Counted from the stretch's first letter, positions 5,176 through 15,262 are shown. The stretch is DNA of 23,159 bases from a virus (IMGVR_UViG_3300048550_000999:1-23159), one strand, 5' to 3'. Made by a program: numbers and translations. Notes: generated by a model not told the origin, from the letters alone.

Positions 5176-5276
5176 AACATTTCAATAGCTATTGCTATAA
5201 ATAAGCTCAAGATAATGCACAAATAAATTTTATAAATATTTGGCAAATTTTGTATTTTTTTTATTATTTTATTCAC
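5172..5276 (-). CDS. 34-residue single-TM peptide
   Basis: A short ORF starting with GTG at 5276, four bases inside the upstream gene (GTGA), and ending in another GTGA overlap with the next small ORF. The peptide has a basic N-terminus (NKIIKKIQNLPNIYKIY) and one hydrophobic helix (YLCIILSLFIAIAIEML), so N-in, C-out topology is expected. Coupling on both sides and the filling of an otherwise empty gap argue that it is real. It could be a small holin, an antiholin or a spanin partner. No family recognised. Confidence 0.5.
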   Translation of the reverse strand: MNKIIKKIQNLPNIYKIYLCIILSLFIAIAIEML

Positions 5277-5731
5277 TCTTTCCTTCCCCCTGGTCTTGCG
5301 TATGCTTGAGAACCACCAGTATACATGGGTGGTCTTGTTAAGCTACGACTGACTTCTGATTTAGAACATTTTTTTGCGACAAACACAGGTATTACTAAAT
5401 AAATGCACAGCAATATGCCAGCAATCATAAGCACTCTTTTTATATAATTTGTGAAACTCTCAAAACCGCTTGCATGCTTTTCCATTCCCTGCGAAACCAA
5501 CGCTTCCACATCACCCCTACTGAGCGCAGATATAGTATTCCTAGCCTCTTCTATTTCTGCGTTGCCACGAGCAACTTCCCCCAATAATGCGCCACCCCCA
5601 GCGCCTAAACCACTCCCAAGGGGTCCTCCTAATGCACTTCCTGCTGCGCCCCCAATGATAGCACCAGTTGTAGGGTAGAACTGCTTAAAGCTGCATGAAG
5701 AAAGCAACAGAGTTAATACAAGAAACCTCAT
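5273..5731 (-). CDS. Lipobox plus TM protein with glycine zipper; unimolecular spanin candidate
   Basis: 152 residues. The N-terminus MRFLVLTLLLSSC is a short lipoprotein signal with lipobox LSSC and lipidation at Cys13. Residues 22-51 are a glycine zipper (TTGAIIGGAAGSALGGPLGS...). A helix-forming linker (about 55-95) leads to a TM helix at about 99-119 and a basic cytoplasmic tail of about 32 residues. An outer-membrane lipid anchor joined to an inner-membrane helix is the topology of unimolecular spanins such as T1 gp11 (131 residues), which fuse the two membranes at lysis. The glycine zipper is unusual for spanins and could instead mean a pore-type or outer-membrane protein. Strong Shine-Dalgarno AAGGAGG at good distance. 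Stop overlaps the next start as GTGA. Confidence 0.6.
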   Translation of the reverse strand: MRFLVLTLLLSSCSFKQFYPTTGAIIGGAAGSALGGPLGSGLGAGGGALLGEVARGNAEIEEARNTISALSRGDVEALVSQGMEKHASGFESFTNYIKRVLMIAGILLCIYLVIPVFVAKKCSKSEVSRSLTRPPMYTGGSQAYARPGGRKE

Positions 5732-5753: not shown

Positions 5754-6053
5754 TTAAGTGATGCTATTTGCTTGCAGGATTTGCTCTATATTGTCGACTG
5801 CTTGTAAGGTATCTGCCCTTGCTTGAGCTAGAATATCTAGGGCTTTGCCTACAGTATTTACATCATTCGAACACCCACAGCCATTGAATGTCAGATAATT
5901 ACCTAAGCTAACAGGACTATAGGGAGTTGCATTACCCAAACTAACTATTGCGGTTTCCAGATCGCTTATTCGGGCGGACGCGATAGAAACCTTATAATTT
6001 AGTCCCTTACCTATTACGCCGACATCAATGCCGACAGACTCAAAGAAACTCAC
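5754..6053 (-). CDS. Unknown 99-residue protein
   Basis: Starts with GTG inside a GTGA overlap with the Fn3-domain gene, so the pair is probably made together. N-terminal half is small and beta-like with a CGC motif (FNGCGCSNDV); the C-terminal third is helical (VGKALDILAQARADTLQAVDNIEQIL). No signal peptide, TM segment or family recognised. The CGC could bind metal or form a disulfide, but this is speculation. Confidence 0.55.
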   Translation of the reverse strand: MSFFESVGIDVGVIGKGLNYKVSIASARISDLETAIVSLGNATPYSPVSLGNYLTFNGCGCSNDVNTVGKALDILAQARADTLQAVDNIEQILQANSIT

Positions 6054-6379
6054 TGCACTTCAACGCCCGTGGAGGAGGCTGCAATAGCTGAATCTCCGAC
6101 AGCATTAGATGCGCTCACGCCATAATAATAAGTTCCTATGGTATCATTATCAAAGGTGATAGTGAATATCTCACCAGTAGCGCTTGGGCTCTGATTGCTG
6201 GATGTTAAGGTAAGATTAGTTGCACTGCCAGCAGCAACCCAAGAGGACGAGCCTGCATTCCAGGTAACTTCCGCTATTAAATTATCTCCCGTATTAACAG
6301 TAGCATCGGTACTTTCGTAAACCTTGAAGCCTTCTTCATTGTCTGCATTATCTCTCCATGAAACTTGTATTTTAGCCAT
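6050..6379 (-). CDS. Free-standing fibronectin type III-like domain protein
   Basis: 109 residues forming one immunoglobulin-like beta sandwich: VSWRDNADNEEGFKVYEST is the B-C strand pattern of Fn3 domains (W, then E-x-G-F-x-V-Y), and YYYGVSASNAVGDSAIA is the F-G part ending in the N-x-x-G-x-S element. No signal peptide. Such domains usually occur fused to tail proteins, where they bind carbohydrates weakly or stiffen fibres; here the domain is alone. The start is well supported by GGAGGA ten bases upstream. Its stop overlaps the next GTG start as GTGA. A virion role is likely; the binding target is unknown. Confidence 0.7.
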   Translation of the reverse strand: MAKIQVSWRDNADNEEGFKVYESTDATVNTGDNLIAEVTWNAGSSSWVAAGSATNLTLTSSNQSPSATGEIFTITFDNDTIGTYYYGVSASNAVGDSAIAASSTGVEVQ

Positions 6380-6424: not shown

Positions 6425-6622
6425 TTAATCTATATCACTGGCTTTAAATGCCAAGACCCATTTGGCAGACTGATTAAATACATGTTTTTTATCATTTTCA
6501 TCTACAATAGTAGATTCTGCTCTTCTCAATGCAGCTTGTGCTGTATCTATAACTACTAGCAACTCTTCAATTTTTTTCATTTGATTGCTAATTGTTTTTT
6601 GTAATTCTTTTTCTAAACTCAT
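6425..6622 (-). CDS. Small coiled-coil protein
   Basis: 65 residues from the ATG at 6622 (MSLEKELQKTISNQMKKIEE). Residues 1-40 form one amphipathic helix or coiled coil; the C-terminus KHVFNQSAKWVLAFKASDID looks like a short folded tail. The frame is open to an ATG at 6658, but those 12 residues overlap the end of the SGNH gene and are its DNA read out of frame; neither start has a good ribosome site. No family recognised. It could be a fibre or tail accessory, judging only by its place. Confidence 0.5.
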   Translation of the reverse strand: MSLEKELQKTISNQMKKIEELLVVIDTAQAALRRAESTIVDENDKKHVFNQSAKWVLAFKASDID

Positions 6623-6633
6623 TTTTAATTTTA

Positions 6634-7296
6634 TTAGTTTTGTATGAAATCGTAGCATTTAAATTTATCGTTGAATGCAAATGAACTGCCTAAGTTTGTA
6701 ATTTTTTTTGCCTTCTTTGTAATGTTTAACTTTTGAATAACCAATTGTTGAACAGATTTATTCAAATGTATGTTATCTTCTTTTTCTCCTGCTATACTTT
6801 GAACTAAAAAAGAATTTAGATCGCTTAAAACTTCATCATATATATCGCAAAACAAAATGTCATGATCTTTACAAAAAATATCAATTTCTTTATTCCACAT
6901 TAAAGTAGTTTTATTCTGCTCACTACGCTTATGAGGGTTAGCGCTGTAAATAATTAAATTATGATATAATTTTCTAATATCTAATATTGAACGCTTGAAT
7001 CTTGAAACAGAATCTATAATTTTATTATTTGGGTTTTGTGCGGAATGAGAAGGATACCAATGATTATATGTATTCCATCTGCAATCAGGTTCACCTAGGA
7101 CTATCATGAAATAATCATCTTTGCTGAAATGAGACATGATACTTAAAAGTTTCCTGCGTGTAGATTGTGCAAAATGTTGATTAGTAAAATTATTGTATTT
7201 TCCTACACCTATAAAAATAGTAAGAAAATAATCGCTGAAAGCGAAAGATCGACTGTGACTATCGCCGATAACTATCGTTTGCCTTGCAGACTCCAT
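6634..7296 (-). CDS. SGNH/GDSL-type hydrolase, esterase candidate
   Basis: 220 residues. Block I is VIGDSHSRSF with Ser13 as nucleophile; GEPDCR at 68-73 occupies the place of the later conserved block; DNIHLN at 174-179 supplies the Asp174/His177 pair of block V. These are the hallmarks of SGNH hydrolases, which often remove O-acetyl groups from glycans. No signal peptide is seen, so it would act in the cytoplasm or as part of the virion. It follows the sulfotransferase by 20 bases and no clear Shine-Dalgarno is present. Very AT-rich (14 G/C in the 60 bases at 6721-6780). The last 40 residues are basic and aromatic and unassigned. A sugar O-acetylesterase is the best guess. Confidence 0.72.
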   Translation of the reverse strand: MESARQTIVIGDSHSRSFAFSDYFLTIFIGVGKYNNFTNQHFAQSTRRKLLSIMSHFSKDDYFMIVLGEPDCRWNTYNHWYPSHSAQNPNNKIIDSVSRFKRSILDIRKLYHNLIIYSANPHKRSEQNKTTLMWNKEIDIFCKDHDILFCDIYDEVLSDLNSFLVQSIAGEKEDNIHLNKSVQQLVIQKLNITKKAKKITNLGSSFAFNDKFKCYDFIQN

Positions 7297-7316
7297 TTGT
7301 TAAAATTACCATATTC

Positions 7317-7889
7317 CTATGCGGAATCATAAAACTCGAACCGCCATAAATCGAAATCTTCACTATAATACTCTTTGAGTATATCCATTGCTTCATCAGT
7401 CACCTCGATTTTACGTTGCTTTGATTTGTTTTGATGCGGTATTATTATATCAAACTTTTGAAAAAATTTTTTATGATTACCTAGCCTCACTATATTATCA
7501 ATCGCTATACAGCCATTTCTGTCTCGTAAATAATCAATCTGAGGTCTGGTCATCATGTAGCCCCAATCATCTTGCACAGGAAGGCTTTTGCAGAAGCTCA
7601 AAAAATCTAAATGTTTAGTATGAGCAAACCAATTATAATATGATATAACCCTAGAAATAGGTTCTCTTATTAGCGCGCATGTCTTGTATCCATCTTGCAC
7701 ATCATAATCAGAAAGCATCATATGAGTATACTTTCCTGTTTTATCCTTATCTCCCCCTATATGAAATAAATCGAAACTTTCTTTTGTGTCTCTTGTAATT
7801 TTTGCTTGATCTAAAAACGCCGACTCAACCGACCAACCCCCGCACTTTGGTATATGAATATAGATAAGCTTATGTTTATGTATTATCAT
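7317..7889 (-). CDS. Sulfotransferase, PAPS-dependent (carbohydrate type)
   Basis: 190 residues. IHIPKCGGWSVESAF at 11-25 is the 5'-phosphosulfate-binding loop of the sulfotransferase family that includes heparan/chondroitin O-sulfotransferases, with the catalytic-type Lys15. IREPISRVISYYNW at 74-87 is the 3'-phosphate-binding element with the expected Arg and Ser. The enzyme would move a sulfo group from PAPS to a hydroxyl of an acceptor, most likely a sugar given three glycosyltransferases immediately upstream. It is short compared with eukaryotic members but both cofactor motifs are intact. Its AT content is very high (12 G/C in the 60 bases at 7441-7500). PAPS must come from the host; no PAPS synthesis gene is in the window. 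Confidence 0.83.
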   Translation of the reverse strand: MIIHKHKLIYIHIPKCGGWSVESAFLDQAKITRDTKESFDLFHIGGDKDKTGKYTHMMLSDYDVQDGYKTCALIREPISRVISYYNWFAHTKHLDFLSFCKSLPVQDDWGYMMTRPQIDYLRDRNGCIAIDNIVRLGNHKKFFQKFDIIIPHQNKSKQRKIEVTDEAMDILKEYYSEDFDLWRFEFYDSA

Positions 7890-8651
7890 TTAAGGTCTTT
7901 TTTTGTAAATATCTATTAGTTCTCCTAGCAAATCTTTATCTTTCCATTCCACTTGATTATCGGAAGTAGATTGCACTAAGCCTATCCTGCCAGCCTTATG
8001 AAAAATTTTAGTTGCTTCCTCTATTACATCCCCGCCAGTATTCCAATAAGCATCAGTATCTGTCACTAAATTATCTTGATGATAATCATTTAAGTCGCCT
8101 CCCCACACCCAATACAAAGAATATTCAGTAGCTCCGTCTTTAATATAGCTACATATATTGTGTGCTTCATCTAATTCTTTACATATTTGTCGCTTTAAAA
8201 ACATCGGAGTGACCCCACACCTAATCTCGGGTTTAGGCTTTCCTAGAAATCCAGAGGCTTTATTCCACCACTCTTCTTGAGCCCCAGTTAATGGCTCCGA
8301 CCAACTTAATAAAGGTTTATTATTAGGCATTAATAATTTTATATGACCTTTGAATAAAAACAGGCAATCGGCATCCATAGTTAGAATCCATTTAGTATCT
8401 ACAAAGCGCCAAGACTTTAATTTTAACACCTGTTGCTTGCCCCACCCACTCATATCAGGTATGCTAAATTGCTTATCTGAAACCACTTTTACTGGCAAAT
8501 GTTCTGTCTGCAATGGGTTTATTTTTTCATCTGTTATAATTAATAACTTACAACCCCTTATGCCATTTAAAGAAGGACTAAGTATTTCATTAAAACGCCT
8601 TACATCTGCTTCACCTTTTATTGGTAAAACTATCGTCACATCATACATCAT
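7890..8651 (-). CDS. GT-A-like glycosyltransferase with DAD motif
   Basis: 253 residues. DVTIVLPIKGEADVRRFNEI at the N-terminus and KLLIITDEK form the first nucleotide-binding strands. GWGKQQVLKLKSWRFVDTKW precedes LTMDADCLFL with D93-A-D95, the metal-binding DxD. The order (KQQxLKLK before a DxD) is like the DUF6492/capsule-type glycosyltransferases. RCGVTPMFLKRQI and EYSLYWVW after the DxD would form the acceptor site. The Met-Met start overlaps the upstream stop as ATGA; its own stop directly abuts the next ATG (TAAATG). Likely a cytoplasmic transferase acting in the same glycan pathway. Sugar and acceptor unknown. Confidence 0.8.
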   Translation of the reverse strand: MMYDVTIVLPIKGEADVRRFNEILSPSLNGIRGCKLLIITDEKINPLQTEHLPVKVVSDKQFSIPDMSGWGKQQVLKLKSWRFVDTKWILTMDADCLFLFKGHIKLLMPNNKPLLSWSEPLTGAQEEWWNKASGFLGKPKPEIRCGVTPMFLKRQICKELDEAHNICSYIKDGATEYSLYWVWGGDLNDYHQDNLVTDTDAYWNTGGDVIEEATKIFHKAGRIGLVQSTSDNQVEWKDKDLLGELIDIYKKRP

Positions 8652-9649
8652 AACTGTTTATAAATTTTAGATTTTCTAATGTTTGAGATAAAGCTTTTCA
8701 GACTTAATTTTTCTGACTTTATAATCTTTTTCATGTGCGAAACAGCCAAATTTGCATAAGGAATTAAATATTGCACATCATCTAATTTATCAAAATACAG
8801 CGGATAGTCTGCACCTAGATACTCCACGATTGATGGATGCCGTGGCACTAATATAGGAACGGCTCGCTGAATACATTCTAATACAGTATTGTTGGCGCTT
8901 GTATCAAATACATCCATTAAAACTATACTTTGATTTAATAATTTATCATACTGCAAATTATCTAGCTGATGCCTCTCCTCTACGCCCTCCAGCCTTACAT
9001 TAAATTTTTCCGCCTCTACTTCTAATTTAGACCTAACCAATTTGTATGGCTCACTATCCTTTTTGTACGGATATAATTTCATTCTCCTATAGCCTTTTGG
9101 AAGGGCAACCTTATATATTGATGTTTGTTTTCTTAGCCACCAGCCTACTGACAACACGATATTACCACCTTGCCACTCGGTAAAATCCTCATCGCTATAT
9201 GGATGCAAAATGGACTCAAAAAGGTGAGAATATTTGGGAAAAAAACTTTTTAATCCCTGCGTATGATATTCACTCATCGCAAATATACCTTTGCAATAGT
9301 TTAAGCTAAACTTGAAATGCTCATCATCCTCAACCCTAACACTATTAGGATTATCATACCAGCTTGGCATATTATGGGGATTATGTATAAATCCCACCCA
9401 AGGTTCTGTGATAGGAATACTTTTATTCTTAATATTTATGTTTCTGAACCAATCAAATGGGCATTCTATAAATGTTTCACACCTAACTCCATTTTCATTA
9501 TGCAATGGCTTCATAGCAGCCAATACATTCTTCCACCCGCCCCTATGAGTTAATAAGGCTGGCTGGGTGGCTAAATTAAACTTTCCGCGCTTATAATTTT
9601 TATTAAAGACAATCTCATAATTGCCCCAATCATCTTTAGGTTTTGTCAT
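8648..9649 (-). CDS. GT-B fold glycosyltransferase (GT4-like)
   Basis: 333 residues. The N-terminal half has the acceptor-side features GGWKNVLAAMKPLHNENG, EPWVGFIHNPHNMP and CKGIFAMSEYHTQGL. The C-terminal half begins with NIVLSVGWWLRKQ and has the donor-binding segment NTVLECIQRAVPILVPRHPS with Glu258, where GT4-type enzymes carry the conserved E of the EX7E region; EYLG follows. The first Glu of a full EX7E motif is not obvious (SANNTVLE replaces it), so donor chemistry may differ. It probably extends the glycan begun by a neighbour. It starts 14 bases inside the upstream glycosyltransferase and ends in an ATGA overlap with the next, so the three are coupled. Confidence 0.8.
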   Translation of the reverse strand: MTKPKDDWGNYEIVFNKNYKRGKFNLATQPALLTHRGGWKNVLAAMKPLHNENGVRCETFIECPFDWFRNINIKNKSIPITEPWVGFIHNPHNMPSWYDNPNSVRVEDDEHFKFSLNYCKGIFAMSEYHTQGLKSFFPKYSHLFESILHPYSDEDFTEWQGGNIVLSVGWWLRKQTSIYKVALPKGYRRMKLYPYKKDSEPYKLVRSKLEVEAEKFNVRLEGVEERHQLDNLQYDKLLNQSIVLMDVFDTSANNTVLECIQRAVPILVPRHPSIVEYLGADYPLYFDKLDDVQYLIPYANLAVSHMKKIIKSEKLSLKSFISNIRKSKIYKQL

Positions 9650-10379
9650 GCATAATAGCTTTTATGTCGCCTGGTATAAAATGCATAAAAGCTTTTGCAA
9701 AATGATCATATATTGCAGTTAGATGCTCATCGGCGTCTGTATAAGCATCTTTTCTATGATGAAAATGGAGGCTTGTTATTTTTCTCTTATGAGGCATTCT
9801 TTTTCTCCAAAACCCTACATTATGATCCTCCGTGAATTTAGCATGAGTAAAACTATTTTTTAATTTCTCCAACGGAGACTGCTCATAAAATCCCTGACCC
9901 TGCAAATATAAATCAGCCCACAATTCTGGCACCTCTTGCTTTTGCGCAAAGATATAACCAGCATTATATTTGCCATACAACCTATCCTTTTCCTGATCCC
10001 TGTGAAAATGCTGAGATAACTGCAATTCTACATTCTCTACATTTATTTCACTTAATAATACTACATCAGCATCAACAAACATTGTATTTTGGTGGCGCTT
10101 GATTGCTTCTTTCATAACAAACATCTTACCATATATACTTACAGGGCAAAAGTGCTGCTTTTTTTTATGAGGTATATCAAAATTGCTAAATCCATAATTA
10201 TCAAAATCTAAGAACTGACAATCAGTATCCTTAAGGACATCCCTTGATACAGCATCCGCTAGACATAATATGGGCACATCACCATGATACTTTCTTATGG
10301 TATGCATGCACACGATAGCCTCGCGCGCGTGAGCATCACCTCTTGTTACGAGGCTAAACGATTTTATACCTACAGGCAA
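9636..10379 (-). CDS. GT-A fold glycosyltransferase
   Basis: 247 residues. The N-terminus IKSFSLVTRGDAHAREAIVC followed by DVPILCLAD is the first part of a Rossmann-like nucleotide-sugar binding fold; residues 100-109 contain MFVDADVVLL with the D103-A-D105 metal-binding motif of GT-A enzymes. YNAGYIFAQ, a GT8-like element after the DxD, and HNVGFW follow. It likely transfers a sugar from a nucleotide-sugar donor in the cytoplasm; the sugar is not predictable. The start is TTG: no in-frame ATG occurs before residue 25, and the first 20 residues are clearly part of the domain. AGG lies five bases upstream. It overlaps the giant fibre gene by 10 bases and the next glycosyltransferase by 14. Confidence 0.85.
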   Translation of the reverse strand: MPVGIKSFSLVTRGDAHAREAIVCMHTIRKYHGDVPILCLADAVSRDVLKDTDCQFLDFDNYGFSNFDIPHKKKQHFCPVSIYGKMFVMKEAIKRHQNTMFVDADVVLLSEINVENVELQLSQHFHRDQEKDRLYGKYNAGYIFAQKQEVPELWADLYLQGQGFYEQSPLEKLKNSFTHAKFTEDHNVGFWRKRMPHKRKITSLHFHHRKDAYTDADEHLTAIYDHFAKAFMHFIPGDIKAIMHDKT

Positions 10380-13300
10380 AGCGACCTAGAATTTCGCCTA
10401 GTATTACTCCACCATCTAGCTTGTGAACCAAATGGTCCTGGGTCACTCACTCCAAACTCAGGATTGCGCGGCGTGGTCTTATAATAACCATTACCAAACT
10501 CGAAATCACCACAAAAGGGGTCGAAGGGTTCACAAAATAATTCATCAGGAGGAAAGCATGCTATTTGGGTAGGATCATCCTCTAGGTAGGCAATTGGCTC
10601 CCATCTCGGATCAAGGGTGTCAGGATTAGCATTGAGATATTTCGCATTATAATCAGCCAATTCTGCTCTAGCCTGTGCAGCCTCAGCCCTAACTTCTTCC
10701 ATTGCAATGGCTACAAGCTTTTCATATTCACCCTGAACATAATAGCCGCCCTCATCTAATTTTACATCCTTGCCATTTACAGACCCAACGCTAACCATTT
10801 TGCCTGCCCCATTATTTGTGGCTACCGCTATATTATTTCTTACACCAAAAGGCGGATTAGAGACTCTATCTCCAGCGGAATTAAACACAGTAGTTCTGGT
10901 TTCATACCCAACAACTTTCTTCAAATACTTATCTCCTCCTATATGAATATTTTGCGTTTTAGGTATAACATCCACCTGCCCAAAATAACCTCCGCCTAAA
11001 TCTATCATATTACAATCAGGTGGTGGTTGAGGTGGGTCGCATGTAATAATGCAAGTATCGGGATCAAACCATTGACCTCCATACGGATGTATTTGGTAAA
11101 TTTCCTCCCCGATACTATTCCACTGCAATATTTGGTCACTTGAAATATTGCGATTCAATGAACTGAGGTTACTTAAACGAACCCTAGGAACTTGATTAAC
11201 CCCTGACCCCGAGCTAGAAGATATTCTTGATGCCAGTATGGCTTGAACTCCGCACATGGCGTGACGCTGCCCTGAAGCTTTCCCTGTTCTGTTGGATGTA
11301 CTCCAAGGATTTGCAGGATTAGCTAAATCATCCCAAACATTGGAGTTTTCTGTATCAAAGAGTGCTACCTCTGCTATGGTAAACTCGCCACTTTGGCGTA
11401 TTATATATTTTCTTGGATTTGCATCTTGTGTTTCGGCTATTATCGAATCATCGGCAATGCGTAATTCATTTGTTTTCTTCTTGTCCCCATGCAAACCTTC
11501 TTTAAGCACGGGCGGAGATAAGGTAAGTGAATCAGGAGGTATTACTACGCCATTCCAAGTTGAGCTACCATTTACCATTGGAGGCTTATAATTGTCATTT
11601 ATTTTCGCTACTCGCTTTCCATCTATATACAATTTAAGAAAACCAGTTTTCTCAACTAAGGGATCATCATAAGCCCAAAGCGCACCTATCTGTATAAAAG
11701 TATCTCGGGGTACGCCCTCGAAAGTACATTCATGATAGCCAAGAACTTCCTCCTGCTTTTGCCAACCATTATCGCCCCTATCAGCCCTATCGACATGAAC
11801 TTCCTGCGGGTTTCCATCTTCATCATCGTATTCAAATACAAACGGATCATTATATAGGTCAACTTCCTGAATACTAAAGCTGTGTAAATCTATACCCCCT
11901 TGCTTGAGCCAAATTCTTACCTGCTTCGGCGGATTATTATCGGTAGTTATTGTTGCAGAAGAATCATTAACATTAAAATATTCATAATATTGATCCGTAT
12001 CATATTCCTCCCAATGTATATTGCCATAATTAGCTTCATCAGTATCTTGCCATAAAAATCTAATACCAAAAGAATCTTTTACCTCAAATCCACTTAAATC
12101 AAAACTTATTCTATAAGTTTTATTAGGTTCTAGTGCGACATCGGTACTGATACTAATACCATGATGAGTTTGATTTGTATTATACTTGCCAAGGGAAAAT
12201 CTGCCATTAACTGCCTTCTGCTTATGTATTGGTGGCTGGGTAGCTCTGGATTTAAGTCTAGCATCAATCTTGCTGTAATTATAAACCTCATCAGTCCAAT
12301 CTACGGAGGTTCTATTTGAGTCAGTTATTGGGTCTGTATTGACCGCATACCACTCAAGTTCAGTGCGATGTGAAAGAAATTGACCAGCGTTGTTAAAAGT
12401 TGGTATTTCTGGCCACCCTTGACCATCGAAGCTTAACTGAATAAACCCAACACTCTTGGTTTTATAAAACAGGTTTTCTGCGCCATTTGAATCAGTTTTA
12501 AGTAATATATAATCAATATCAATGCGATGATCCTGCAAATATAAATTATCACCACCAACTCTCTTATATCCCCCAACCCTATTGCCTCCATCTGCTAATT
12601 GATAATTCCATTCATATACAGCTTCTTGTCCCTCGAAAGCGCCATCAGACCAATCCCCTGTGACCGCGGCACAGATACTTTTTTCAGGATGGGCAGCAGG
12701 AAAAGAATCAATTATTTCCTTTGCTCTCAGTCGAAATCTTTTTACGCCATTAGGAGGCTCTCTTGTGGCTGCTAAATTTTGACCCGTATAACTAAGATTA
12801 TTCTGATCTAATTTTGCTAATTGATCTACGCCCATTATGGACTCAGGTATATCTCCATTGAGAAATCCATACTGGGGCAAATTCCAATCATCGAAACCCC
12901 CATCCTGTGTTTTGTCAAAGTTACCTGGGTGACCATCATTGGCTATTCTAATAGAATGATGCTTCCAGCCATGATAATTTTCAAAAAATGGATTAGCTAT
13001 TAACTCATCACTTATACTTGTATATTTAACTCTTCCTACAGTGTTATCGGGTACTGAATAATTAATTCCATTGTAGAATATAATTCTGTCATTCACTCTT
13101 AATTCGGAATAATTACTACTATCGGCATAAGATTCTATACTGCTTGTGTACATTCTCGCACCTAAAGTAGTGCCACGGGAAAAAATATGAATATAGGCTT
13201 GGTGGTTCTTAAAAGTTAAAATAGGATTTTGAGTATTTAAGGCAGAGCCATTTGAGCTAAAAGAAGGAATTTTAATAACAGCTCCCATATAGCCTTCGCG

Positions 13301-15262
13301 CATGGTATCCATATTAACGCTATCATTTACTGCTCCGCTTATGCCCTGTGCATCATGGTCAAAATAAAGCAAATCGCTCCCAAACTCATTAAGAGCTAAG
13401 GGCGCAAAAGCAGCGTCAAGTGGAACGAGGCTAAGATCATCATTTCTGTACCTTACATCCCCTTTATACTCATATATATAATGTTTTCCTTGAGAAGCGG
13501 ATACACCTAGGTTACCTCTCCACTCCAATAGCATTCTCTCCCCTTCTCTCTTGCCCCAATCATTGTCTCCTTGCCTCCACTGCTTTCGCAACCTCCATCC
13601 CTGTGAGCTGACAGAACCTGGTACATCGGTAGTCCTAAAATAACAAAGAAAACCAGTTGTACACTCATAATGAAACGCAGGTTCTTGAATTTCATCTAAT
13701 CCTATCAACTGATTATAAGCTATCGCTGCATCTGGCGCTACTGGTATTAGACCCGTTTTCTCCTCAATTAAGGCTGGCGCTGCTGGCGGGAAATGACTTG
13801 CAACTACATTTGAAGGTTCACCGACTACTGTTCCTGATTTATCTTCTAAATATTCAGGAGCAAATGGTGAAAACTTGATACTTATATGGCTAGGTGATAA
13901 TACCCCACCACTACCTACAACTTCGGATGGTGGCGTTGGTGTGGTCATAACTATTGCTTCGATTATAACTGGCTCAGCAATACTATCAGACTTAGCAACA
14001 ACTTCTGACGGCGGATTGACTGGGTTTATAATTTCAGCAGTTACTTGGTTGACCTGTCCTGGTCTAGGTTTAGAGGTTATATAAATGGACTCACCTTCCT
14101 GCAAAATAGGCGATGATGTTATTATTTGCCTATTTACATAATCGACCTCAAGGATTGTAAAATTTTCTAGTTGGAAATTTGCTCCCTTAATTCCATATGC
14201 TGCATTTTCTTCACTAAAATCTGCATTCGATCCATTTCTCAAATGCGAAAAATATTTTAATACACTTTGTGTGTGCTTCTCATTATCTAGGCTACCAAGA
14301 TCATATTTTGCATTAATATTAACTTTATATACATAATTGCCTAAATAAAATGAATGCGAAGCTGGCAGAACATCCTCACTTCTATTGCCCGAATGTGCTA
14401 TATAATTCCATGCCTGCTGTGGTTCTGTCTGGTAATGATTATATTCTGGGCTTGATATAACTTCATTTCCAGTACCATCTATGTAGGAATCAACATTCCA
14501 TCTTTTTACTAAACTATAATTTACAGGTGTATCATAAGAGCCATTTTCATTATCATCTACACCTAATACTCTCTGTGAATAATCAACTGGCACAATCGAA
14601 CTAAACACGCCCTGCGCAATCGCCCTGTCCACAAACTCAAAATCATAAGTTTCAACAGAAGCAACCGTCAATTGATCTGGGGCATCGGGAATACAGGTAT
14701 GATAATCTCCCATAAATTGATCGACACAGCCTGGCATATAATAAGTGACGCCATTTAATTCTACTGTGGAAGCAGTAGGAGTAATACACTGAGATGCATT
14801 AAAGGCTTCAAGCTCAGTTATATACAGAGGATAATATCTATCAATTAATAAAGCTTTACCCCATTCGCGCGCAACTATTTGCTGTGGCGCTACTGGTGAT
14901 ATTCCGATAACAACCTGATCTGGAGCATCAGGCTTAAACACAATAGACACATAGTGAAATTTAGGTGCTTGGGGCAATCTTTGATCCCAAACTCCATCAC
15001 CATCTGCATCTAAGTCATGTAGATCAATTATTCCATCTTTGTCAGTATCTTCATATTCAATAAATGCTGACTTAAATAATGGTTCATACAAAAAAGAAAC
15101 GCGATCCCCTACCTGAAACACATGATTATTGCTTTTGATGGTGATCTTATCATCTGACGCACTCTCTACTTCAAATTTTTCTCTATCCGAAAACGCCCAA
15201 ACCTTGCCTCCGCTATCGAGGGTTCTTTGAATCAACTTATTGGTAATATCAGAAACAATCAT
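10370..15262 (-). CDS. Giant tail-fibre-like virion protein with calcium-binding motif
   Basis: 1,630 residues, the largest gene in the window. Residues 72-93 contain a thrombospondin type-3-like calcium motif with Asp at 72, 74, 76, 80, 83, 85, 87, 89 and 93 and glycines after two of the loops (DKDGIIDLHDLDADGDGVWD). Proline-rich linkers of the type PDAPDQV, PVAPQQI, PPSEVVA and PAAPALI occur at about 110-131, 190-200 and 413-516, separating large beta-rich, aromatic and Asn/Asp-rich regions. The C-terminus has a short Ala/Glu helix (EEVRAEAAQARAELADY) and a Cys cluster in the last 80 residues. No enzyme motif or chaperone-cleavage domain is recognised. Length, linkers and position point to a receptor-binding or adhesin-like fibre. 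It overlaps the downstream glycosyltransferase by 10 bases. Confidence 0.75.
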   Translation of the reverse strand: MIVSDITNKLIQRTLDSGGKVWAFSDREKFEVESASDDKITIKSNNHVFQVGDRVSFLYEPLFKSAFIEYEDTDKDGIIDLHDLDADGDGVWDQRLPQAPKFHYVSIVFKPDAPDQVVIGISPVAPQQIVAREWGKALLIDRYYPLYITELEAFNASQCITPTASTVELNGVTYYMPGCVDQFMGDYHTCIPDAPDQLTVASVETYDFEFVDRAIAQGVFSSIVPVDYSQRVLGVDDNENGSYDTPVNYSLVKRWNVDSYIDGTGNEVISSPEYNHYQTEPQQAWNYIAHSGNRSEDVLPASHSFYLGNYVYKVNINAKYDLGSLDNEKHTQSVLKYFSHLRNGSNADFSEENAAYGIKGANFQLENFTILEVDYVNRQIITSSPILQEGESIYITSKPRPGQVNQVTAEIINPVNPPSEVVAKSDSIAEPVIIEAIVMTTPTPPSEVVGSGGVLSPSHISIKFSPFAPEYLEDKSGTVVGEPSNVVASHFPPAAPALIEEKTGLIPVAPDAAIAYNQLIGLDEIQEPAFHYECTTGFLCYFRTTDVPGSVSSQGWRLRKQWRQGDNDWGKREGERMLLEWRGNLGVSASQGKHYIYEYKGDVRYRNDDLSLVPLDAAFAPLALNEFGSDLLYFDHDAQGISGAVNDSVNMDTMREGYMGAVIKIPSFSSNGSALNTQNPILTFKNHQAYIHIFSRGTTLGARMYTSSIESYADSSNYSELRVNDRIIFYNGINYSVPDNTVGRVKYTSISDELIANPFFENYHGWKHHSIRIANDGHPGNFDKTQDGGFDDWNLPQYGFLNGDIPESIMGVDQLAKLDQNNLSYTGQNLAATREPPNGVKRFRLRAKEIIDSFPAAHPEKSICAAVTGDWSDGAFEGQEAVYEWNYQLADGGNRVGGYKRVGGDNLYLQDHRIDIDYILLKTDSNGAENLFYKTKSVGFIQLSFDGQGWPEIPTFNNAGQFLSHRTELEWYAVNTDPITDSNRTSVDWTDEVYNYSKIDARLKSRATQPPIHKQKAVNGRFSLGKYNTNQTHHGISISTDVALEPNKTYRISFDLSGFEVKDSFGIRFLWQDTDEANYGNIHWEEYDTDQYYEYFNVNDSSATITTDNNPPKQVRIWLKQGGIDLHSFSIQEVDLYNDPFVFEYDDEDGNPQEVHVDRADRGDNGWQKQEEVLGYHECTFEGVPRDTFIQIGALWAYDDPLVEKTGFLKLYIDGKRVAKINDNYKPPMVNGSSTWNGVVIPPDSLTLSPPVLKEGLHGDKKKTNELRIADDSIIAETQDANPRKYIIRQSGEFTIAEVALFDTENSNVWDDLANPANPWSTSNRTGKASGQRHAMCGVQAILASRISSSSGSGVNQVPRVRLSNLSSLNRNISSDQILQWNSIGEEIYQIHPYGGQWFDPDTCIITCDPPQPPPDCNMIDLGGGYFGQVDVIPKTQNIHIGGDKYLKKVVGYETRTTVFNSAGDRVSNPPFGVRNNIAVATNNGAGKMVSVGSVNGKDVKLDEGGYYVQGEYEKLVAIAMEEVRAEAAQARAELADYNAKYLNANPDTLDPRWEPIAYLEDDPTQIACFPPDELFCEPFDPFCGDFEFGNGYYKTTPRNPEFGVSDPGPFGSQARWWSNTRRNSRSLCL

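Follow-up and report, generated by a model that had tools for sequence, protein, structure and literature searches.

Recurrent phage cassettes joining a glycosyltransferase pair to a sulfotransferase suggest a modular system for virion glycosylation

Temperate phages carry gtrABC serotype-conversion cassettes, which combine a membrane flippase (GtrA) with a lipid-carrier, polytopic glycosyltransferase (GT). Phage GTs may also act on the particle itself, as in the mycobacteriophages Che8, Corndog and Myrna, whose own enzymes add sugars to both capsid and tail tube (work of Freeman et al. 2023, as related in PMC12363180 and PMC12619734); outside mycobacteriophages, virion glycosylation has barely been explored. 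In mimivirus, L230 is a collagen lysyl hydroxylase/glucosyltransferase (PMC9614988), while the sulfotransferases of OM43 phages, members of the Sulfotransfer_3 family, have a function that is called unclear (PMC10580990). Here we describe a cassette of five enzyme-like genes located between a giant fibre-like gene and the tail genes of an uncultured tailed-phage fragment, the 23,159-base IMG/VR record IMGVR_UViG_3300048550_000999 (the whole stretch analysed, hereafter the window). A core comprising a GT-A and GT-B pair and a sulfotransferase recurs in other phages; such recurrence suggests that certain phages coat their own virions with sulfated sugars of variable make-up.

The recurrence set consisted of six uncultured IMG/VR contigs, the window together with L006, L028, L029, L030 and L036, the last five having been found by scans with GT-B; these pattern scans are incomplete by design. 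GT-A, GT-B and a Sulfotransfer_2-type gene occur together in all six GT-B contigs, which supports the glycan-plus-sulfate logic put forward in an earlier note on this DNA. GT-A always precedes GT-B, and the two are fused in L029, L030 and L028 (in which the contig end truncates GT-A). The sulfotransferase gene is found one or two genes after GT-B, directly in L006, L036, L029 and L030 and after a DUF6492 gene in the window and L028; in L036 it was recognised by 52% identity to the L006 protein. GT-B is 53-91% identical across lineages, and the cassettes adjoin virion genes, giant fibre genes among them, in both siphovirus-like (window, L006 and L030) and podovirus-like (L036 and L029) phages. 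The podovirus-like contig carrying the L029 cassette encodes a 4061-amino acid giant protein (L031:2796-14981). The cassette is missing at the same spot in the more distant relatives L008, L010 and L011; in L010 and L011, which have syntenic flanks, the fibre genes run directly into an Fn3 gene with no enzyme between. Sulfotransfer_2 was found in none of nine related GT-B-less records, of which only the L008, L009, L010 and L011 contigs are long enough to inform. Two cassette-less or truncated relatives (L016:2332-3752 and L004:1706-2458) contain a GT2-like gene between ParB-like and metallophosphatase-like genes just before TerL, joined in L016 by an FkbM methyltransferase gene.

Beyond the constant GT-A/GT-B pair and sulfotransferase, the trailing genes of the cassettes are exchanged. 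One tail, present in the window and L028, comprises DUF6492 and a type a sulfotransferase (66% and 72% identical, respectively). The other begins with a type b sulfotransferase (51-62% identical), followed by a GT8-like gene in L006, L036 and L030, and in L029 by genes of the GT25 and GT32-like kinds plus another sulfotransferase. Additional genes encode an FkbM methyltransferase in L006 and L030 (53% identical), extra sulfotransferases in L030, and nucleotidyltransferase-like proteins in L028 and, by reading of the sequence, L036. Comparison of L028 with L029 reveals GT-B proteins that are 91% identical and a downstream flank that is similarly close, but everything between differs; the swap point therefore lies right after GT-B. 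The view that the five window genes form one conserved unit, the order expected by the earlier note, was rejected, as DUF6492 appears elsewhere only in L028 and no counterpart of the SGNH-like gene was found in the other cassette contigs. Because of this absence, the acetyl trimming that had also been proposed stands outside the core functions and is unproven.

Within the window the five genes are tightly packed on the minus strand. The GT-A gene (9636..10379; 247 amino acids, TTG start) overlaps the giant gene by 10 bases and the GT-B gene (8648..9649; 333 amino acids) by 14 bases, the latter overlapping the DUF6492 gene (7890..8651; 253 amino acids) through a 4-base ATGA. The DUF6492 and sulfotransferase (7317..7889; 190 amino acids) genes abut, TAA being followed immediately by ATG, and 20 bases separate the sulfotransferase gene from that of the SGNH-like protein (6634..7296; 220 amino acids). 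These gene coordinates reproduce exactly the spacing given in the earlier note, whose enzyme classes are supported for GT-A, GT-B, DUF6492 and the sulfotransferase, the fifth, SGNH, being called by motifs only. Hydropathy analysis revealed no membrane segment in any window cassette enzyme (maximum KD19 1.09).

The product of the first cassette gene, the predicted GT-A, contains a DxD motif (FVDADVVLL) in which D103 and D105 are invariant across five homologues; matches to GT family profiles were obtained only for its relatives and below cut-off (PF03407 for L006 and PF11051 for L030). The window GT-B has no Pfam family match. Its AlphaFold2 model, built from five sequences (predicted TM-score 0.71, mean predicted local distance difference test (pLDDT) 66, with parts at low confidence), matches GT-B enzymes in the PDB (Foldseek E 4e-7, probability 1.00), among them SenB, Asp1, BshA and the protein glycosyltransferase SdgB, and superimposes on the chlorella-virus NY2A GT 3oy2 (VIA) with a Z score of 12.6, 264 aligned positions and a root-mean-square deviation of 4.0. 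As modelled, the GT-B fold is confirmed, with a pair of Rossmann-like domains resembling that of GT4-type enzymes. The closest BFVD structure matches are from Nucleocytoviricota, the Pyramimonas orientalis virus GT (30% identity over 263 columns) and further proteins of Harvfovirus, Terrestrivirus, Pithovirus and CroV. The DUF6492 protein matches PF20102 (E 5.6e-17, 62.2 bits, cut-off 22.9), formally a family of unknown function, and displays its own DxD motif (MDADCLFLF); it is a probable GT, and the three GTs counted in the earlier note are thus likely. Sequence searches of the PDB with GT-B and DUF6492 profiles gave no match. Profile-profile comparison of the DUF6492, GT-A and GT8-like proteins provided no sign of a shared ancestry outside the DxD stretch.

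The prediction that gene 7317-7889 encodes a sulfotransferase dependent on 3'-phosphoadenosine-5'-phosphosulfate (PAPS) is supported by matches to PF03567 (Sulfotransfer_2; E 2.2e-10, 41.5 bits, cut-off 22) and phrog_3347 (E 2e-7); the L006, L028, L029 and L030 proteins likewise exceed the PF03567 cut-off. The PAPS-binding residues of the 5'-phosphosulfate-binding motif (HIPKCGGWSV; K15, G17, G18 and S20) and the 3'-phosphate-binding motif (REPISRVISYY; R75, P77, R80 and S83) are invariant in six sulfotransferases, the other five of which are 21-72% identical to that of the window (72% for L028). Against the PDB the sulfotransferase profile gave weak matches to sulfotransferases (best 3rnl, E 0.018). 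The SGNH-like protein displays the motifs GDSH (residues 11-14), GEPDCR and DNIH (DxxH, 174-177); its best Pfam match has an E of 0.18, no profile exceeds its cut-off, and a single-sequence model reached a pLDDT of 40. The GC content of its gene (0.294) and of g6425 (6425..6658, minus strand; 0.282), which overlaps it by 25 bases and encodes a 77-amino acid protein with no family match, is the lowest in the cassette (0.344-0.366 in the other genes). The SGNH-like gene is probably an accessory and the latest addition, with which g6425 probably arrived.

The cassette is linked to the virion genes by position and by translation. The main genes, on the minus strand, run from TerL through portal, protease-like and major head proteins to the tail genes and the tape measure. 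TerL (phrog_15), portal (phrog_21), the protease-like protein and the major head protein (phrog_283, 2e-29) lie upstream of the giant gene, and a tail-terminator-like protein (PF20765, below cut-off) and the tape measure (phrog_991, 5e-43) downstream of the cassette. The phrog matches bear out the location inside the virion operon that had been claimed, and the gene order points to late co-expression with virion genes. The giant fibre-like protein (10370..15262, minus strand; 1630 amino acids; CBM_4_9 PF02018, 3.5e-6) has an N-terminal part of about 400 residues common to its family (56% identical to L006 and 41-45% to L010/L011) and an otherwise divergent sequence. The GT-A reading frame begins within the giant gene, and the same 10-base overlap and TTG start are retained in the diverged L006. 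The coupling to the giant gene is therefore not a chance juxtaposition.

A different arrangement is seen in L030, in which the tape measure and tail proteins are followed by a 1716-amino acid protein, a small protein, a metallophosphatase-like protein, a 2-oxoglutarate (2OG)-Fe(II) oxygenase, the GT-A::GT-B fusion and the sulfotransferase. The giant protein (L030:1429-6579) is collagen-like, with 20 consecutive Gly-X-Y triplets of which 8 have proline at the Y position, and the oxygenase gene (L030:8517-9131; PF13640, 1e-14) overlaps that of the fusion; L030 also carries a GT25 gene. A hydroxyproline- or hydroxylysine-linked glycan is thus possible in this phage. Structural genes come after the cassette in L036. 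The ends of the L029 contig overlap imperfectly, and across the join a cysteine-rich protein and a lipoprotein homologue precede the cassette. The latter belongs with the glycine-zipper lipoprotein-like protein of the window (5273-5731; one hydrophobic segment), perhaps a lysis or membrane factor, which siphovirus-like and podovirus-like contigs share near the cassette (63% identical in L006, 58% in L036 and 40% in the L029 contig) and has a 33% identical homologue in L008.

The slot is closed by an Fn3/Ig-like protein (6050..6379, minus strand; 71% identical to L006 and 44-51% to L008-L011), and in relatives without the cassette its homologues come after fibre genes or further Fn3-like genes. 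In L009 (1105-3573) the counterpart of window gene 5754-6053 carries an extension that, by reading alone, resembles a SASA-type carbohydrate esterase (IDIYLVAGQSNAHGH). Near the cassette, the window and L006 (g15259, 55%; giant N-terminus, 56%; Fn3, 71%) are closer to each other than either is to L010/L011, whereas the head protein of L006 is 59-61% identical to those of L010/L011 and 44% to that of the window. This pattern fits joint inheritance of the fibre region and cassette, although the same identities would result if the window lineage had had its head gene replaced.

We consider it fairly likely that the cassette is a late-expressed virion-glycan system, with the fibre as the most likely acceptor, and favour this explanation over modification of the host envelope. 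The earlier note had named both virion proteins and the cell surface as targets; these remain the two main hypotheses, and several of our findings point to the virion. GT-A and GT-B, which look cytosolic and whose translation is coupled to that of the preceding giant fibre gene, would draw on host sugar nucleotides to initiate an oligosaccharide on a virion protein itself, most probably the fibre, and then lengthen it. The swappable later enzymes (in the window DUF6492, the sulfotransferase and the SGNH-like protein) would elongate and cap the glycan, the sulfotransferase adding sulfate from host PAPS. Because the cassette tail is exchanged between phages, the outer sugar of the particle would be diversified, and the benefit may be a shielded or more stable particle, or one that avoids unproductive binding. 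Soluble GT genes are encoded together with virion genes in the window, as expected of a virion glycosylation system. The cassettes showed no sign of a flippase, a polymerase or a lipid-carrier GT, and this, together with the lack of membrane segments, makes a soluble protein the simplest acceptor. Thus, the soluble enzymes, the lack of a lipid-carrier gene, the fibre-coupled translation and the oxygenase and collagen-like protein of L030 all favour virion-protein glycosylation. The presence of SdgB, a protein glycosyltransferase, among the GT-B structure matches and the established mycobacteriophage precedent point the same way.

Several points weigh against this proposal. Many of the enzymes matched by the GT-B model have small-molecule or lipid substrates (SenB, BshA and PimA). 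The C-terminal remainder of the giant protein is about 27% identical between the window and L006, and because this part differs so widely no common acceptor motif was found in the fibre. The glycan and its acceptor are predictions from gene content, and a supply of PAPS and sugar nucleotides by the host is assumed. Finally, in the nearest published interpretation (PMC7029224), the GTs of the pelagimyophage host-recognition region modify the host surface, which makes such modification the main rival. It could be argued that lipopolysaccharide, capsule or exopolysaccharide precursors are remodelled in the cytosol, resulting in receptor masking, a block to superinfection or easier release of progeny. 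Adjoining fibre genes and swapped trailing genes would fit co-evolution with receptors, and the FkbM, GT25, GT32/Caps_synth and nucleotidyltransferase genes of the cassettes are of kinds generally known from polysaccharide loci also. However, no membrane protein, flippase or polyprenyl-phosphate GT was recognised in any cassette (hydropathy being computed for the window only), the cassette is embedded among virion structural genes, and L030 pairs its oxygenase with a collagen-like protein; we therefore regard host-surface modification as the less likely of the two.

Less probable still is that these carbohydrate genes are mobile cargo without a fixed role, trapped behind the fibre gene at a recombination-prone site. 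The cassette GC content is below that of the flanks, the tail is variable and L008, L010 and L011 lack the cassette, but GT-B is conserved and in some lineages fused to GT-A, a sulfotransferase with intact PAPS motifs is always present, and a pattern scan of 84,980 prokaryote species genomes, incomplete by design, gave no GT-B homologue. Sequence searches of 50,697 cultured phage records (by tblastn for GT-B) found no homologue of the window GT-A, GT-B, DUF6492, sulfotransferase or SGNH-like proteins, and a plasmid search no match for the last two. Scans of genome contigs with the major capsid protein and GT-B, aimed at prophages that would reveal the host, gave no match either, and the closest cultured portal, of Verrucomicrobia phage P8625, is only 26% identical. 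To our knowledge no sulfotransferase or FkbM enzyme acts on DNA, which counts against the least probable explanation, that the GTs glycosylate hypermodified phage DNA bases against restriction. Phage GTs often act on DNA (PMC12619734) and relatives have a separate GT2-like gene beside ParB-like and TerL genes, but neither the window nor the surroundings of the other cassettes revealed a base-hypermodifying enzyme, and the gene set sits among structural genes.

Glycosylation of the virion is the explanation we favour, and a recurrent GT pair and sulfotransferase core tied to fibre genes makes it a concrete, testable proposal. If true, phage particles contain sulfated glycoproteins whose cap is varied by gene swapping, a bacterial-virus parallel to the particle glycans of giant viruses. 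The fuller version, in which a phage-specific modular cassette, with an unchanging GT pair for priming and exchangeable capping enzymes, sulfates fibre glycans, producing variable coats, and shares its GT-B distantly with giant viruses, is offered tentatively, at somewhat less than an even chance; the giant-virus link is unexpected and rests on structure matches.

Several described systems share features with the cassette. Like gtrABC of temperate phages it is a phage-encoded GT cassette, but no hydrophobic segment occurs in any of its window enzymes. OM43 phages and Stenotrophomonas phage DLP_6 also have PAPS-type sulfotransferases; the OM43 genes, however, belong to Sulfotransfer_3 (PMC10580990), and that of DLP_6 lies among replication genes and not with GTs or virion genes. 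The pelagimyophage host-recognition cluster likewise places several GTs in a variable tail-fibre region of marine phages, but the part of PMC7029224 consulted describes neither a sulfotransferase nor a conserved GT-A/GT-B/sulfotransferase core, and reads the GTs as modifying host O-chains. In Nucleocytoviricota, virus-encoded GTs decorate the particle, as proposed here, and mimivirus L230 recalls the hydroxylase, GT and collagen-like protein of L030 (PMC9614988); these viruses, which provide the best BFVD matches of the window GT-B, infect eukaryotes, and the words sulfotransferase and sulfated are absent from that review. In the mycobacteriophages, direct glycosylation of virion proteins by phage GTs is shown and not, as here, proposed. 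The passages of PMC12363180 and PMC12619734 seen mention no sulfotransferase, and the acceptors there are capsid and tail tube; here a multi-enzyme cassette with swappable trailing genes adjoins a giant fibre, a comparison made at the level of description. In an incomplete collection of literature, no paper was found to join a phage sulfotransferase to virion glycosylation or to describe a recurrent, sulfating, modular form of it. Virion glycosylation itself is already known; what we propose as new is such a recurrent, sulfating and modular version.
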